From: Bacteroidales bacterium
GTDB lineage: Bacteria; Bacteroidota; Bacteroidia; Bacteroidales; UBA932
Assembly (NCBI GenBank): GCA_017428035.1
Contig: JAFRRR010000023.1
Span: 1-64,000, forward strand
Length of the DNA stretch: 64,000 nucleotides
Direction of reading: 5' to 3'
Shown one piece after another: positions 2,681 through 57,874 of the stretch. Numbering within the stretch: position 1 is the first letter of the stretch; every line of letters starts with the position of its first letter. The notes under the pieces are model-generated. The model made no database searches and had not been told where the DNA came from. It saw only the letters and a list, made by a program, of their open reading frames with translations. A program made the translations under genes and the position numbers.

Positions 2681-2831
2681 TGCGATACTTTTCGCCACAC
2701 TGCACGTTACGTCTCATGTATTATCAAACAGCCACTTGAAAAATGTGGTGCAAATGTGTCCAATTTTGGTGCATAAATGAAATAAGACTTTGTAGGAAGC
2801 TTGATTATCAGCAACTTACAAGGTCTTTGTG

Positions 2832-2915
2832 TACCCGGAGCCGGGGTCGAACCGGCACAGCCTCGCGGCCACTGGTGTTTGAGACCAGCGCGTCTACCGA
2901 TTCCGCCATCCGGGC
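2832..2915 (-). tRNA. tRNA-Leu (anticodon CAA)
   Basis: On the minus strand the sequence folds as a class II tRNA of 84 nt. The acceptor stem pairs GCCCGGA with TCCGGGT, the anticodon stem is CTGGT/ACCAG around loop CTCAAAC, there is a long variable arm, and the T arm contains GGTTCGACCCC. The anticodon reads CAA, so it decodes UUG leucine codons. The 3' CCA is not encoded, as usual in this phylum. Its 3' end faces the foreign-looking island at 1477-2831. Confidence 0.93.
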
Positions 2916-2973
2916 ATTGAATTGTGGAGCGACTGCGGCGCCCCCGGCAGACCTCGCCTTACGGGAGTGAGCA

Positions 2974-3003
2974 CAAAGGTAGGCCATTTTTCGGAAAATA
3001 CAA
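2974..3003 (-). promoter_or_regulatory. tRNA-Leu promoter
   Basis: On the minus strand TTG (3003-3001), a 19-bp spacer and TACCTTTG (2981-2974) match the Bacteroidetes sigma-ABfr consensus exactly. Transcription would begin near 2967, about 50 nt before the tRNA. Confidence 0.75.
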
Positions 3004-3039
3004 ATGATAGCGTTGACGCCTGAAAGGCAAGCGCTACAC

Positions 3040-5019
3040 TTACTTCAGCGGGAACTCGGGCCAGGAGCGGTCTATGCACGCTGCATCATCCAGCAAGACC
3101 TTGCCGTCGCAGATTTTTCCGGCCGCCAGAAGGGCCATTGCCAGATGGTGGTCGCCGTGAGAAGAGACCTTGCCGCCACGGAGCGTGTTGCCAAACGACC
3201 CGCGCACCAGCAGAGAGTCGCCTTCTACAGTGATGTCGGCGCCCAGACGAAGAAACTCCTTCACATAGAGCTTCTCCCCGCCCCGGAGCGCCTTAATGCC
3301 AAGGATGCGGCTCACGCCCTCGCTGCGCAGGGCCAGCAGCAGGATGGGCCCCAGCAAGTCGGGACAATCGGTGATATCGCACTCAAACGCCGCCATAAGC
3401 GACCTGAACGCAGAATAATACCCCACACTGTCGCCAAGATACTCCATCTCGGGATCGGTGTAACGCTCTATATCGGCCCCGGCCGTCTCAAACACGTCCA
3501 GGATATAATTTTCCTCTTGCAGAGAGCCGCCACGCATATTCTCAACGCCGCTCTCTCCCGCAATTGCACCCAGCGTAAGCCATAGCGCCGCTGCGCTCCA
3601 GTCCCCCTCTATGTCGAACCGGCTGGGCAGATAACGGCGGCCGTCACTCGAAAACTTGTACACGACACTCCCCGCCTCTTCTGACAGTACATCCTCGTAT
3701 TTGATGCCGAACCGGCGCACCACATCGGCAGTGACCTGAATGTGCTTCAGGCAACTGGCCTCGCTGATTTTGAGAGTGATCTCCCCCGCCCCGGCAAGTG
3801 GCAGCGCCATCATCAGCCCCGTAAGGAACTGGGCGCTGGCGGGCGACGAAATATTGTAGGTGCCGCCCTTGAACGGCCCCTGCACGGTGGCAGGAAGATG
3901 GCCTGCGGTGAAATCTACATTCACCCCGTGGCGGGTCAGTTCGGGACATCTGACATTGAACTTATGGCTGGCGATGGCCCCGTGGCCATCTATCGTGACC
4001 ACATTGCGGCACAGCGCCGCCAGCGGTATGCAAATCCTGCACAGGAGGCCGCTGCAGCCAACATCCAGACGATCGTCCTTTACCATCAGGCCATATTTGG
4101 CAATATCCTGATGGCCGATGACAGTCAACTCTTTGGTCCGGCGGGAATATTTGACCTCGGCAAAAAGCTGCCTGGCCACATCCATCGCCGCCGAAATATC
4201 TTCTGATGGCGTTATGTTTTCCAGAACCGTCTCCCCGGAAGTGAGCGCGGCCGCCACGATGGCCCTGATGGCGATGCTCTTGGCGCACGGCGGCTCCACG
4301 TCGCCCCAGCAGCGGGTATCTTCTGCAGGGAGAAAATCAAAGAAAAGCGGCTGGCCCTCTGCGGTGGGCAGGCGACGGCGCGGAGCGGCATACATCAGCG
4401 GCGCACCGCGGTGAAACGCTTCGTATCGAGACTGCTCTCCCTCTCGGCCCATTGCAAACGCTATGAGGTGTTCGGGCGGGAAAGAGTCGTACAGCGCCAG
4501 CACCCTGGCCGCCTCGTCGGGATGATGGGCGGTGGTTACAATCTTGGCGATGTCGGCCCCCATAGAAAAAATGCGGCTGGCAATTGCCTGCAACGCCTGG
4601 GTCGATTCGGTGCCGTAAGGATTGTGGTGGGAAAGGATCACCTTGCAGCCATAGTTCAGCGCAAGCTGCTCCAGCCAGAGCAACTCGTTTCGGGGGAAAT
4701 CCATATCGACATCAATATAGTCGGCGCCGGCAATAATAGAGGCGGAAAGCATCCGCACGGCCATATCCACCTCGGTGCAGTCGGGCTCGGAATCGTCGTC
4801 GCCAAGATCCAGATGATCTGCCTCGGAAGGATCCTTTATGCGATAGGTGGCCACCACGGGGCAATTCCCGCAGCCGGCAAAGAAATATTTGATGTCGTCG
4901 GTATCAAAAATGAGGTCGTCAAGCCGCAGCTCCACAGCGTGCGCGCCGATATCCGCCAGTGCCCAGGCACAGCAGTAATCGACATCCATCTGGCAGAGGC
5001 TGTAGCACGGTAGACCCAT
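3040..5019 (-). CDS. aroDA: fused type I 3-dehydroquinate dehydratase / EPSP synthase
   Basis: A 659-residue bifunctional shikimate-pathway protein. Residues 1-215 are a type I DHQ dehydratase: VELRLD (29-34), the catalytic histidine in ILSHHNPYGTE (128-138) and the Schiff-base lysine K159 in IAKIVTT. Residues 237-659 are an EPSP synthase of full length, keeping K247/S248/R252, Q397, aspartate D554, E588 and R591. The usual NAGTxxR motif is CSGLLCR (322-328), and the PEP-binding arginine of the DHR motif is histidine (DHHLAMA, H625). Activity of the second domain is therefore less certain. The ATG overlaps the S41 protease stop in TAATG, so translation is probably coupled. Confidence 0.88.
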   Translation of the reverse strand: MGLPCYSLCQMDVDYCCAWALADIGAHAVELRLDDLIFDTDDIKYFFAGCGNCPVVATYRIKDPSEADHLDLGDDDSEPDCTEVDMAVRMLSASIIAGADYIDVDMDFPRNELLWLEQLALNYGCKVILSHHNPYGTESTQALQAIASRIFSMGADIAKIVTTAHHPDEAARVLALYDSFPPEHLIAFAMGREGEQSRYEAFHRGAPLMYAAPRRRLPTAEGQPLFFDFLPAEDTRCWGDVEPPCAKSIAIRAIVAAALTSGETVLENITPSEDISAAMDVARQLFAEVKYSRRTKELTVIGHQDIAKYGLMVKDDRLDVGCSGLLCRICIPLAALCRNVVTIDGHGAIASHKFNVRCPELTRHGVNVDFTAGHLPATVQGPFKGGTYNISSPASAQFLTGLMMALPLAGAGEITLKISEASCLKHIQVTADVVRRFGIKYEDVLSEEAGSVVYKFSSDGRRYLPSRFDIEGDWSAAALWLTLGAIAGESGVENMRGGSLQEENYILDVFETAGADIERYTDPEMEYLGDSVGYYSAFRSLMAAFECDITDCPDLLGPILLLALRSEGVSRILGIKALRGGEKLYVKEFLRLGADITVEGDSLLVRGSFGNTLRGGKVSSHGDHHLAMALLAAGKICDGKVLLDDAACIDRSWPEFPLK

Positions 5020-48825: not shown

Positions 48826-49071
48826 ATGAAACGATCTTTTTTTGATAAACTATTATTGGTGATTGCCTGGGGCGGACTCGTCGTAGGTATTCTGGTAAGC
48901 GTCGCTTACAGCCATTCCATTTGGGCGTCGGGACGCGAGATGTGCTTTCCCCAGGCCGCTTTTTACCTGGCAGCCGGCGTCGGCGCCTCGGTCCTTGGCT
49001 GGGCCGTCCTAAAGGAGATTGTATCCATCTCCGACAGGCTCAGACGGCTGGAGAACGGCAACAATCATTAA
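48826..49071 (+). CDS. small two-segment membrane protein
   Basis: An 81-residue protein with two hydrophobic segments (about 9-30 and 41-60) and a short basic, helical tail (SDRLRRLENGNNH). It starts 2 bp after the PspC gene stop and must be cotranscribed. I recognise no family; a helper of the PspC protein is possible. Confidence 0.7.
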   Translation: MKRSFFDKLLLVIAWGGLVVGILVSVAYSHSIWASGREMCFPQAAFYLAAGVGASVLGWAVLKEIVSISDRLRRLENGNNH

Positions 49072-49075
49072 GCGC

Positions 49076-49207
49076 ACTTTCACAGGTTGCAGTAGTGAAC
49101 ATCTGCCGGTTACCTGTGCGCAATCCCTGCGACCTCTGCGGCAATTTCGCCGCGGAGGTCGCGCTCATATACCGCCAACGCCCGCCAGAACACGCACTCC
49201 GCAACCT
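49076..49207 (+). repeat. REP-like 132-bp direct repeat, left copy
   Basis: Same 132 bp as 50380-50511 with 5 differences (96%). It contains the hairpin GCGACCTCTGCGGC/GCCGCGGAGGTCGC and has short inverted arms, AGGTTGC near one end and GCAACCT at the other. It begins 4 bp after the small membrane protein gene and lies before the RAYT gene. Confidence 0.85.
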
Positions 49208-49309
49208 GCGAAAATCGAGTAAGCTATTTTGCTCCTTTTTCTTGCAAACTCTGCACAGTTTGTTGTACCTTCGCATATGAGCAGCCACTAACGGCGGCGA
49301 GAGATTAAG

Positions 49310-50281
49310 ATGATGTTGGACAAAAAACTGCTCGAGGAGCTCACTTCAGATCTCGGGCTCAAAAATCCCTTCGTAAAAGGCAAAGACAATCCTGTGAGGC
49401 GATGCTGGCATTTCAGCACCGACGGAAATGCCGTGGACATCATTTTCTATGACGAAACAGACTTCATAAACGGAATGAACCGTATTTATGTCACCCTTCA
49501 GAAGTACCGCGTTGTCATTCTGGCGTTCTCACTTATGGACAATCACCTGCATCTTGTCCTTTACGGGGACTTTGACGAGTGCAACCGCTTTATGCACGAC
49601 TATGTCCGGCGGACATCCCACGACATATCTGTCAGACACGGCTTGCAGCATAAGTTAGAGAATGTGCCCATAAATCATCAGGTCGTGGACACCGACTTTT
49701 ATCTTAAAACTGTCATCTGCTATACGATAAAGAACGCCCCGGTGGCTGGTATCAGATATAACGCCTGGAGCTACCCCTGGTCCAGCGGACCGCTATACTT
49801 CAACAGGCCCGGCTACTGGTGCTCGCCTGGCTGGCTCACAGCTACGGGCGGCACAATCACGACAGATAGTCTCGGGCTCAGAGCAAGGCTTGCGGCGCTT
49901 AAGACCAAAGAAACGCCAGCTTTTTCGGCTCGTATGATCGGCCCGGTTGTTTTCCCAGGGGACTACGTGGCGTATGAGCTTGTAGAACAACTTTTCAAGA
50001 CCCACAAGAGCTTCAACTTTTTCCTATGTCTGTCCAAAGAAGAAGATGTAGAGGCCCGTGGCGGTAGCATATCGCATCTATCCATTCCGATACAGGAGAT
50101 GCGCCAGCACAAAACCGAAATATGTCAAGAGCTGTTTGGCGTTAGCAGCGTCAAATTCTTGTCCACGAAACAGCGCCTGATGCTTGCCCGCACAATGCGA
50201 GCCCGCTACAACAGTTCCCTTAAACAGATTATCAGGCTATCCGGCCTTGTGTACGAAGAAGTACGGGACATATTGAAATAA
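49310..50281 (+). CDS. REP-associated tyrosine transposase (RAYT, Y1 family)
   Basis: A 323-residue protein of the Y1 transposase family. The HUH motif is N78-H79-L80-H81 in LMDNHLHLVLYG, and the catalytic tyrosine is probably Y138 in CYTIKNAPVAG. A domain of about 170 residues follows, longer than in IS200 transposases, as expected for RAYTs. Such enzymes nick and rejoin single-stranded palindromic DNA and are thought to spread REP sequences. Two adjacent ATGs (49310, 49313) can start it. It is flanked by 132-bp repeats that have hairpins, the likely substrate. Confidence 0.85.
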   Translation: MMLDKKLLEELTSDLGLKNPFVKGKDNPVRRCWHFSTDGNAVDIIFYDETDFINGMNRIYVTLQKYRVVILAFSLMDNHLHLVLYGDFDECNRFMHDYVRRTSHDISVRHGLQHKLENVPINHQVVDTDFYLKTVICYTIKNAPVAGIRYNAWSYPWSSGPLYFNRPGYWCSPGWLTATGGTITTDSLGLRARLAALKTKETPAFSARMIGPVVFPGDYVAYELVEQLFKTHKSFNFFLCLSKEEDVEARGGSISHLSIPIQEMRQHKTEICQELFGVSSVKFLSTKQRLMLARTMRARYNSSLKQIIRLSGLVYEEVRDILK

Positions 50282-50379
50282 TTTCCGTAAAGAGGCATCC
50301 TCTCTCCCTCAACACAAGCGGCCGCTACACACAAAGGACCTATCCCTTGTCTCTGTTTAGCCGCCAATGCCGCAACCCA
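50282..50379. other. gap between RAYT and right repeat
   Basis: No gene, terminator or promoter is evident. The right repeat starts directly after it. Confidence 0.4.
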
Positions 50380-50511
50380 ACTTTCACAGGTTGCAGTAGT
50401 GAACATCTGCCGGCTACCTGTGCGCAATCCCTGCGACCTCTGCGGCAATTTCGCCGCGGAGGTTGCGCCCATCTACCGCCAACGCCCGCCAGAACGCGCA
50501 CTCCGCAACCT
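50380..50511 (+). repeat. REP-like 132-bp direct repeat, right copy
   Basis: Direct copy of 49076-49207, same length and orientation, 5 substitutions, two of them near the central hairpin (GGTCGCGC versus GGTTGCGC). It follows the RAYT gene by 98 bp. Confidence 0.85.
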
Positions 50512-50543
50512 CCGGATGTCTGGTTGGTGATCCCGGAACGCCT

Positions 50544-50623
50544 AGCGCAAAAACAGTTCGCAAAGGGAACAGGCGCGAAGAGCCGCCTGGCCCGTAGCGA
50601 AGCTGTTTTGAAGCAAAGCGACG
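50544..50623 (-). repeat. dispersed palindromic repeat, copy B
   Basis: On the minus strand this matches the element at 30401-30483: shared blocks TCGCT, GCTTC, CTTCGCT, GGGCCAGG and TGTTCCCT in the same order with a variable centre. It lies 17 bp past the lepA stop, as copy A lies past rpsC. Confidence 0.55.
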
Positions 50624-50639
50624 GATGGCGGGTGGGTGA

Positions 50640-56109: not shown

Positions 56110-56153
56110 GTTGCTTGTAACGCTCGCCTCCAATGGTGAGCGTTTCTGTTTCC
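56090..56153 (-). repeat. relic of the trmN6 3' end (left copy of duplicated boundary)
   Basis: 64 bp with 51 identities to 57173-57236 and no gap. Read on the minus strand it encodes ERYKQLTSGFYL, against ERYLELTSGFYL at the true end of the methyltransferase. It therefore looks like an older 3' end of that gene stranded left of the AbiEii pair. It also forms a hairpin (AACGCTC...GAGCGTT) that could terminate the Spy-like gene. Confidence 0.75.
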
Positions 56154-57169: not shown

Positions 57170-57874
57170 CTACAGATAAAACCCGGAAGTAAGCTCCAGA
57201 TAACGCTCGTCGCCGACCACGAGCGTTTCTGTTTCCAGACGGGAAGGGGCGGCGGGAGAGAATTCCAGCATCAGGCGCTTGGGCAGGGCGCCTTTCTTTG
57301 TCTTGACAAAGCACTGGCGGGTGAGAAACCACCCGAAGAGGGTCGCCTCCAGAATCATCTTTTTGCCCTGGTCAAAGGGAAGGATCAGTGACAGGCGGCC
57401 GCGCTCGGAAAGAAGTTTAGCGGCGGCAAAGAGCAGATCGCGGCGACTGAGTGTATCGGTGCTTCGGGCGGCGTCGCGCTCGACGCTGCTGGAAGAGGGA
57501 CTGCCGTCATAATAGGGCGGATTACAGAAGATAACATCATAGCTTGCCGGAGCCGCCTCATCGGCAAAATCCTGCAGGGAAACCTGTCGGACAGAAAGAT
57601 GTTCAGCCCAAGGAGAAGCGGCAAAATTGTCGGCACAGTCAGCCATGGCGCCAGGCTCGATGTCGATAGCGTCGATGCGGAAATCAGAAACGCCCGCCTC
57701 GGCCAGACGCTGCGCCGCCATAAGCGCCAGTATCCCGCTGCCGCTGCCGGCATCCAGCAGTCGCTCCGCACCTGAAACATCCATCCAGGAGCCAAAAAGG
57801 ACCGAATCCGCGCCAATTTTCATTGCGCAGCGGTCATCCTTCAGCGAGAACTTTTTTAGGCGGAAAACGGCCAT
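57170..57874 (-). CDS. trmN: tRNA1(Val) adenine-37 N6-methyltransferase-like
   Basis: A 234-residue SAM-dependent methyltransferase. It has FKQF-like start FRLKKFSLKDDRCAMKIGADSVL, the SAM-binding LLDAGSGSGILALMAAQR, DIEPGA, and the catalytic NPPYYDGS. This is the YfiC/TrmN6 pattern. The final 21 codons (57173-57236) are duplicated at 56090-56153. The ATG overlaps the ATPase gene stop in TAATG. Confidence 0.9.
   Translation of the reverse strand: MAVFRLKKFSLKDDRCAMKIGADSVLFGSWMDVSGAERLLDAGSGSGILALMAAQRLAEAGVSDFRIDAIDIEPGAMADCADNFAASPWAEHLSVRQVSLQDFADEAAPASYDVIFCNPPYYDGSPSSSSVERDAARSTDTLSRRDLLFAAAKLLSERGRLSLILPFDQGKKMILEATLFGWFLTRQCFVKTKKGALPKRLMLEFSPAAPSRLETETLVVGDERYLELTSGFYL
57173..57236 (-). 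repeat. right copy of the duplicated trmN6 3' end
   Basis: Functional 3' end of the methyltransferase, 80% identical to 56090-56153. The 1019 bp between the copies carry only the AbiEii pair. Confidence 0.75.

Follow-up and report, generated by a model that had tools for sequence, protein, structure and literature searches.

A gene for a RAYT-type HuH-Y1 nuclease that lies between two nearly identical, hairpin-forming repeats raises the question of what the repeats are to the gene. They might be the substrate of its enzyme, the ends of a mobile element, the remains of a local duplication, or regulatory hairpins around an ordinary gene. Such a locus is present in the window, the whole 64,000-nucleotide stretch of gut Bacteroidales DNA analysed here (Table 1), and was originally predicted to be a RAYT with its own, unusually long REP sequences. 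We consider it likely that the locus is a REPtron/TIRtron-like system, in which a domesticated-type HuH-Y1 single-strand nuclease gene has its candidate substrate at either side.

RAYT genes have been reported to lie, without exception, between inverted REPs that carry a GT(A/G)G head (Nunvar 2010, PMC2817692), and inverted REP doublets are known as REPINs (Bertels and Rainey 2011, PMC3116915). TIRYTs are RAYT-like genes with long TIRs that differ between paralogs, together forming TIRtrons (Di Nocera 2013, PMC3733652). Most TIRYTs were placed in TnpA_Y1 subclass 2.1, where REPs were not found, while subclass 2.6 of the Bacteroidetes has atypical flanking structures with copies elsewhere in the genome (Quentin 2018, PMC6006769). 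Descriptions of TIRYT-type enzymes have so far been brief and have left their substrates open, that study calling "further analyses" necessary (PMC6006769).

Table 1. Coordinates of the RAYT locus and its flanking units in the window.
Feature	Position	Strand	Basis or remark
Upstream 152-bp unit	49070..49221	+	Direct repeat, core register; covariance model E=2.8e-16
Cores of upstream unit	49082-49090, 49129-49137 (rc), 49154-49162, 49201-49209 (rc)		
Central hairpin of upstream unit	49129-49162		
Leader motif GAGCAGCCACTAACGGCGGCG (= GAGCAGCCAYWARNGGCGSYGG)	49279..49299	+	Recurs upstream of most homologous RAYT genes
RAYT/TIRYT-like HuH-Y1 nuclease gene, 323 aa	49310..50281	+	Motif, profile, fold match
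Downstream 152-bp unit	50374..50525	+	Direct orientation; direct repeat; covariance model E=1e-15
Cores of downstream unit	50386-50394, 50433-50441 (rc), 50458-50466, 50505-50513 (rc)		

A TnpA_REP-like protein

The window protein carries an HLH motif (H79, H81) together with Y138 and N142, none of which varies across 18 aligned homologs. This bears out the original prediction of a Y1 transposase, with HxH and tyrosine, between the two repeats. The HuH-to-Y distance is 59 residues in all seven subfamily members measured. Profile matches are faint for the protein itself: Pfam Y1_Tnp matches it weakly (E=0.044), and NCBIfam REP_Tyr_transpos, which matches 14 of the 18 subfamily homologs (best 3.1e-8), gives it 15 bits, far under the curated cut-off of 80. 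A sequence-profile search of the PDB with the window protein returned no match.

With an AlphaFold model (pLDDT 74.7) as query, the top Foldseek match was 4ER8 (E 0.011, prob 1.00), which also led the VIA-align ranking (Z 8.2, rmsd 3.5, 135 residues aligned), followed by IS608 (Z 6.4). This best PDB fold match is the structure of E. coli TnpA_REP in complex with a REP hairpin. A Z near 8 is modest on its own, yet sequence, motif and modelled fold agree in identifying the protein as TnpA_REP-like. The C-terminus, which in subclass 2.1 carries an HTH/DnaA-like domain, is helical in the model, and Pfam gives no HTH match. The leader motif follows a TAnnTTTG-like promoter box and precedes the RAYT start codon; it is strongly conserved and, judging from its sequence, is perhaps a small regulatory hairpin for translational control.

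A 152-bp unit with four covarying cores

A repeat search of the window delimited two direct repeats (49076-49210 and 50380-50514) of 135 nt, 96% identical and spaced by 1304. The identity is as originally predicted; the predicted size of 132 bp and end at 50511 fall short, since these repeats reach 50514 and make up the interior of two 152-bp units bracketing the HuH-Y1 gene. The two units are 90% alike in direct orientation versus 60% when one is inverted. When the window's own genome (2.26 Mb, 136 contigs) was searched as DNA by BLAST with the 135-nt repeat, the window pair were the only high-identity copies, the next match having E=0.26, and the repeats are therefore not a chance occurrence. 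The reading of this search as "two copies only" was dropped once diverged units surfaced through their ends, their length and a covariance model. As single-stranded DNA, both window repeats form more stable folds than 200 shuffled versions (z -2.9 to -4.4), and the predicted strong hairpin, GCGACCTCTGCGGC-AATTTC-GCCGCGGAGGTCGC, and 7-bp inverted arms, AGGTTGC / GCAACCT, are present.

Among the flanking repeats of genus relatives and the dispersed copies, units share the ends AACCCGAAATTC...GAATTTCGGGTT and nearly all are exactly 152 bp long, a combination of ends and length that shuffled sequence yields at a background rate of 0.1 per 64 kb. Within each unit, one 9-nt core occurs four times in alternating orientation, at unit positions 13-21, 60-68 (rc), 85-93 and 132-140 (rc). 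Every core adjoins an AT-rich foot, AAATTC at the unit ends and AATTT in the centre. The cores are similar inside one unit and different between families and loci.

The pairing between cores is visible as covariation. In 29 units of less than 80% identity, the strongest covarying column pairs lie on the three expected diagonals (sums 153, 81 and 225), and one example pair is 97% complementary versus 36% expected. Across 33 units, a nested structure has 85.5% of its cells paired versus 64.2% in shuffles, with a covariation score of 0.569 versus 0.200 shuffled and 0.08-0.16 when the structure is slid. An alternative structure of two hairpins scores about as well, which a fourfold repetition of one core would lead one to expect, and the data fit both folds. 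The 33-unit alignment holds no conserved GTAG, and the GTAG of the window unit falls in a spacer.

Adjoining the downstream unit at its lepA end is a second dispersed intergenic repeat (window 50532-50624), which recurs several times both in the own genome and in many members of the genus, and also lies beside lepA in relative G005.

Units accompany the gene family

The unit covariance model was used to scan loci and genomes, about half of the 47 RAYT loci being outside its training set. A unit was found beside 46 of these 47 subfamily genes, which span several genera: a unit precedes 40 of the genes, usually by 60-185 nt, follows 36 and stands on both sides of 30. The sole RAYT locus without a detectable unit is a pseudogene of the own genome (C87), with an in-frame TGA. 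Where both sides are occupied, the flank pair is direct at 22 loci and inverted at one (23 of 30 clear, by a margin of over 5 points).

Genomes follow the same pattern. Of 250 family genomes, 51 are unit-positive (E<=1e-4), and 50 of the 51 carry a RAYT homolog, which 125 of the 250 have overall (p=1e-16). In the genus, every one of the 20 genomes that encode a homolog also shows unit matches, and none of the six that lack it does. The covariance model found units in none of 294 other sampled genomes of the order; the gene family itself appears at 1e-40 in one of these, which belongs to the same family. The window's relatives are Bacteroidales MAGs, many of them ruminant-derived. Counting copies in the genome and its relatives, as had been suggested with the original prediction, reveals diverged 152-bp units elsewhere, beside almost every homologous RAYT; rather than being present only here and unrelated to the RAYT, units are dispersed and RAYT-associated.

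The cores follow the gene phylogeny, demonstrating core-RAYT co-evolution. RAYTs more than 75% identical have cores that agree at 78-91% versus 31-38% for distant pairs. Core similarity is correlated with RAYT similarity (Mantel r=0.375, p=0.0002), part of this correlation being shared descent, since the spacers also give a positive value (r=0.446). Between RAYTs that are 75-85% identical, 78% of the core and 42% of the spacer is shared.

These associations weigh on a further explanation, in which the gene is an ordinary one and the repeats are transcription terminators or regulatory RNA hairpins, unrelated to any nuclease substrate. Their intergenic, hairpin-forming nature and their position near gene ends would suit such a role. 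However, a search of Rfam with the repeat matched no family, core turnover is tied to RAYT phylogeny, the length is nearly fixed at 152 bp, and units are absent where the gene family is absent. We regard this explanation as very improbable.

Paralogs and solo units

Six further RAYT homologs are encoded in the own genome, either 54-64% or under 31% identical to the window protein. Three of these paralogs are enclosed by private direct-repeat pairs, C96 (160 nt, 89%), C84 (150 nt, 89%) and C127 (126 nt, 92%), all of unrelated sequence. The covariance model detects eight strong units in this genome and three or four weak ones. The strong units comprise the window pair, the C96 pair, a pair in C117, and solo units in C33 and C120, the last carrying the window core (ACAGGTTGC). 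The direct pair in C117 (L191:1673-3993; 91%) surrounds a gene that appears by eye to be thioredoxin-like, with no RAYT.

Solo units are present in many genus members, and other genomes have units in up to about 19 places (G004, 37 two-strand matches). Two solo units of G011 are absent from the matching sites in G016, and one is cut to a short end in G010. The empty sites of G010 and G016 are imprecise, with no exact target-site duplication seen. Such differences between species could reflect loss rather than insertion. Copy numbers are low, and the genomes are draft MAGs.

Two paralogous loci have peculiarities of their own. At C96 (L018, about 2722-3255), the RAYT lies within one unit pair together with a YbaK-like ORF (identified by eye), and on contig 48 (L020, 1248-1583) a distant paralog is accompanied by an array of 42-nt tandem repeats and no 152-bp unit.

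Relation to known systems and a proposed mechanism

The locus most resembles TIRtrons. It shares with them a RAYT-like HuH-Y1 gene between long repeats unrelated to GTAG REPs, paralog-specific repeats within one genome, and repeat families of moderate copy number. Some TIRtron repeats are likewise self-complementary or doubly palindromic, and the HuH-Y spacing of 59 is within the common range of 58-67. Unlike terminal inverted repeats, the flanks here are direct, though each unit is internally quasi-palindromic. They further differ in their near-fixed 152-bp length and four covarying cores, in having AACCCGAAATTC ends rather than the GGGGWSAS of TIRtrons, and in spanning several genera of one Bacteroidales family.

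Other systems share some of these features. The HuH motif, catalytic tyrosine and TnpA_REP-like predicted fold are those of canonical RAYTs, as are gene-specific hairpin repeats at the gene flanks that co-evolve and are dispersed, and the 152-bp unit contains an inverted doublet in the manner of a REPIN. The original prediction of a RAYT with cognate hairpin repeats therefore stands, whereas that of canonical REPs does not: the unit is about 152 bp long with no GT[AG]G head or foot, copies are few, and the flanks are direct, not inverted. Subclass 2.6, or RAYT group 5, is mostly found in Bacteroidetes and has flanking structures without GTAG and copies elsewhere (PMC6006769), but its median HuH-Y spacing, according to the published description used for this comparison, is 82 aa versus 59 here. 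IS200/IS605 elements (IS608, ISDra2) have the Y1 HuH fold and hairpin ends; in contrast, this locus has long direct repeats, a C-terminal extension and a weak Y1_Tnp match, and the own genome lacks near-identical multiple copies of gene plus ends. The system is best named a TIRtron-like variant with direct 152-bp four-core units, set apart from subclass 2.6 by published spacing. What is new is a well-defined REPtron/TIRtron-like variant with no GTAG foot, few copies, direct orientation and a quadruple core.

By analogy with E. coli TnpA_REP and IS608 relatives, we infer that the enzyme nicks and transfers the unit. The substrate would be the 152-bp quasi-palindrome, with its four locus-specific 9-nt cores, each with an AT-rich foot. 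In a single-stranded unit, such as one on the lagging strand, pairs of cores would fold into hairpins. The enzyme would then bind core and foot, nick near the unit ends, and transfer a unit copy to a different intergenic location. The expected outcome would be solo units, presence that is polymorphic between species, core-RAYT co-evolution, and homogenised flanks, all four of which are observed.

We speculate, tentatively and expecting that it may well prove wrong, that in one Bacteroidales family a clade of RAYTs recognises a 9-nt core that is free to evolve and is displayed four times on a rigid 152-bp scaffold. Each paralog would keep a private core, copy its unit to new sites, and make its locus a hotspot of local rearrangement. 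If so, the clade would represent a natural set of HuH nucleases with decodable specificity. A candidate substrate is now defined to the base, and dozens of natural core variants are paired with their enzymes. Consequently, the specificity of RAYTs and the spread of repeats by them can both be tested directly.

History of the locus

In relative G005, the RAYT (78% identical) lies between a PspC gene upstream and lepA downstream, as in the window, and in G014 the PspC gene is likewise upstream of a RAYT that is 81% identical. These common neighbours indicate that the locus is old and inherited rather than the product of a recent hop. In G024, about 14 nt separate the small gene from lepA, and both the RAYT and the units are missing. 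G003, which is 96% identical around the site, also lacks the RAYT and units and has lepA in the opposite orientation; loss is the simpler reading there, because G005 has the RAYT locus. The original prediction looked to strains with one repeat and no RAYT: units free of a RAYT do exist, and these two relatives are without the whole locus.

The absences in G024 and G003 would be expected if unit, RAYT and unit formed a mobile IS-like composite, inserting and excising as one 1.45-kb piece. The same is true of a RAYT gene found before a nitroreductase gene in G015, where the own genome has a decayed relative after the nitroreductase gene. Against this, the window locus is common to G005 and, on its upstream side, to G014, and different species have orthologous loci in several further cases, so that inheritance has been mainly vertical. 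Even the closest paralogs in the own genome reach no more than 54-64% identity, and there are neither recent identical copies nor a target duplication. We consider a composite of this kind unlikely; that the whole 1.3-kb unit could excise or spread, as originally suggested, stays conjectural for a locus that looks old.

The flanking copies evolve in concert, through gene conversion or re-copying. Flank identity within versus between orthologous loci is 97/97 versus 89-91 in one group, 93/97 versus 77-80 in another, and 90 versus 54-61 for the window. Copies within a locus are more alike in three of four groups, the exception being C96, whose two species are very close. This excess of within-locus identity, and the direct orientation that favours conversion, could also arise if the flanks were a plain local duplication whose copies RecA gene conversion keeps similar, with the RAYT serving the host solely as a nuclease and not spreading units. 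We think this quite unlikely, as it leaves unaccounted for the unlinked solo units with matching cores, the co-distribution of gene and units, and the four-core covariation. The likely reading remains a nuclease gene flanked by its own substrate.

Two blocks beside one RAYT clade are reordered and inverted among the four species G016/G011, G013 and G010 (L198, L199, L200, L137), and units lie at most of the junctions. Recombination between quasi-palindromic units would fit this pattern, with the caveat that 150-bp repeats can mislead the assembly of draft MAGs. Concerted evolution of flank pairs and the position of loci at rearrangement breakpoints bear on how low-copy repeats persist. A 6.5-kb inversion next to the RAYT of G014 was also considered as unit-mediated and dropped, a terminator-like inverted repeat (CGCTCGTC...GACGAGCGTTTCTGTTTCC) being present at both junctions.

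The window contains a terminator-like repeat, AACGCTCG...CGAGCGTTTCTGTTTCC, at 56117-56150 and 57203-57235, and inverted copies of it lie at both ends of the G014 inversion. In the window, the two copies frame a two-ORF insert that is absent from G003 and encodes a nucleotidyltransferase-like ORF, putatively AbiEii-like as judged by eye.
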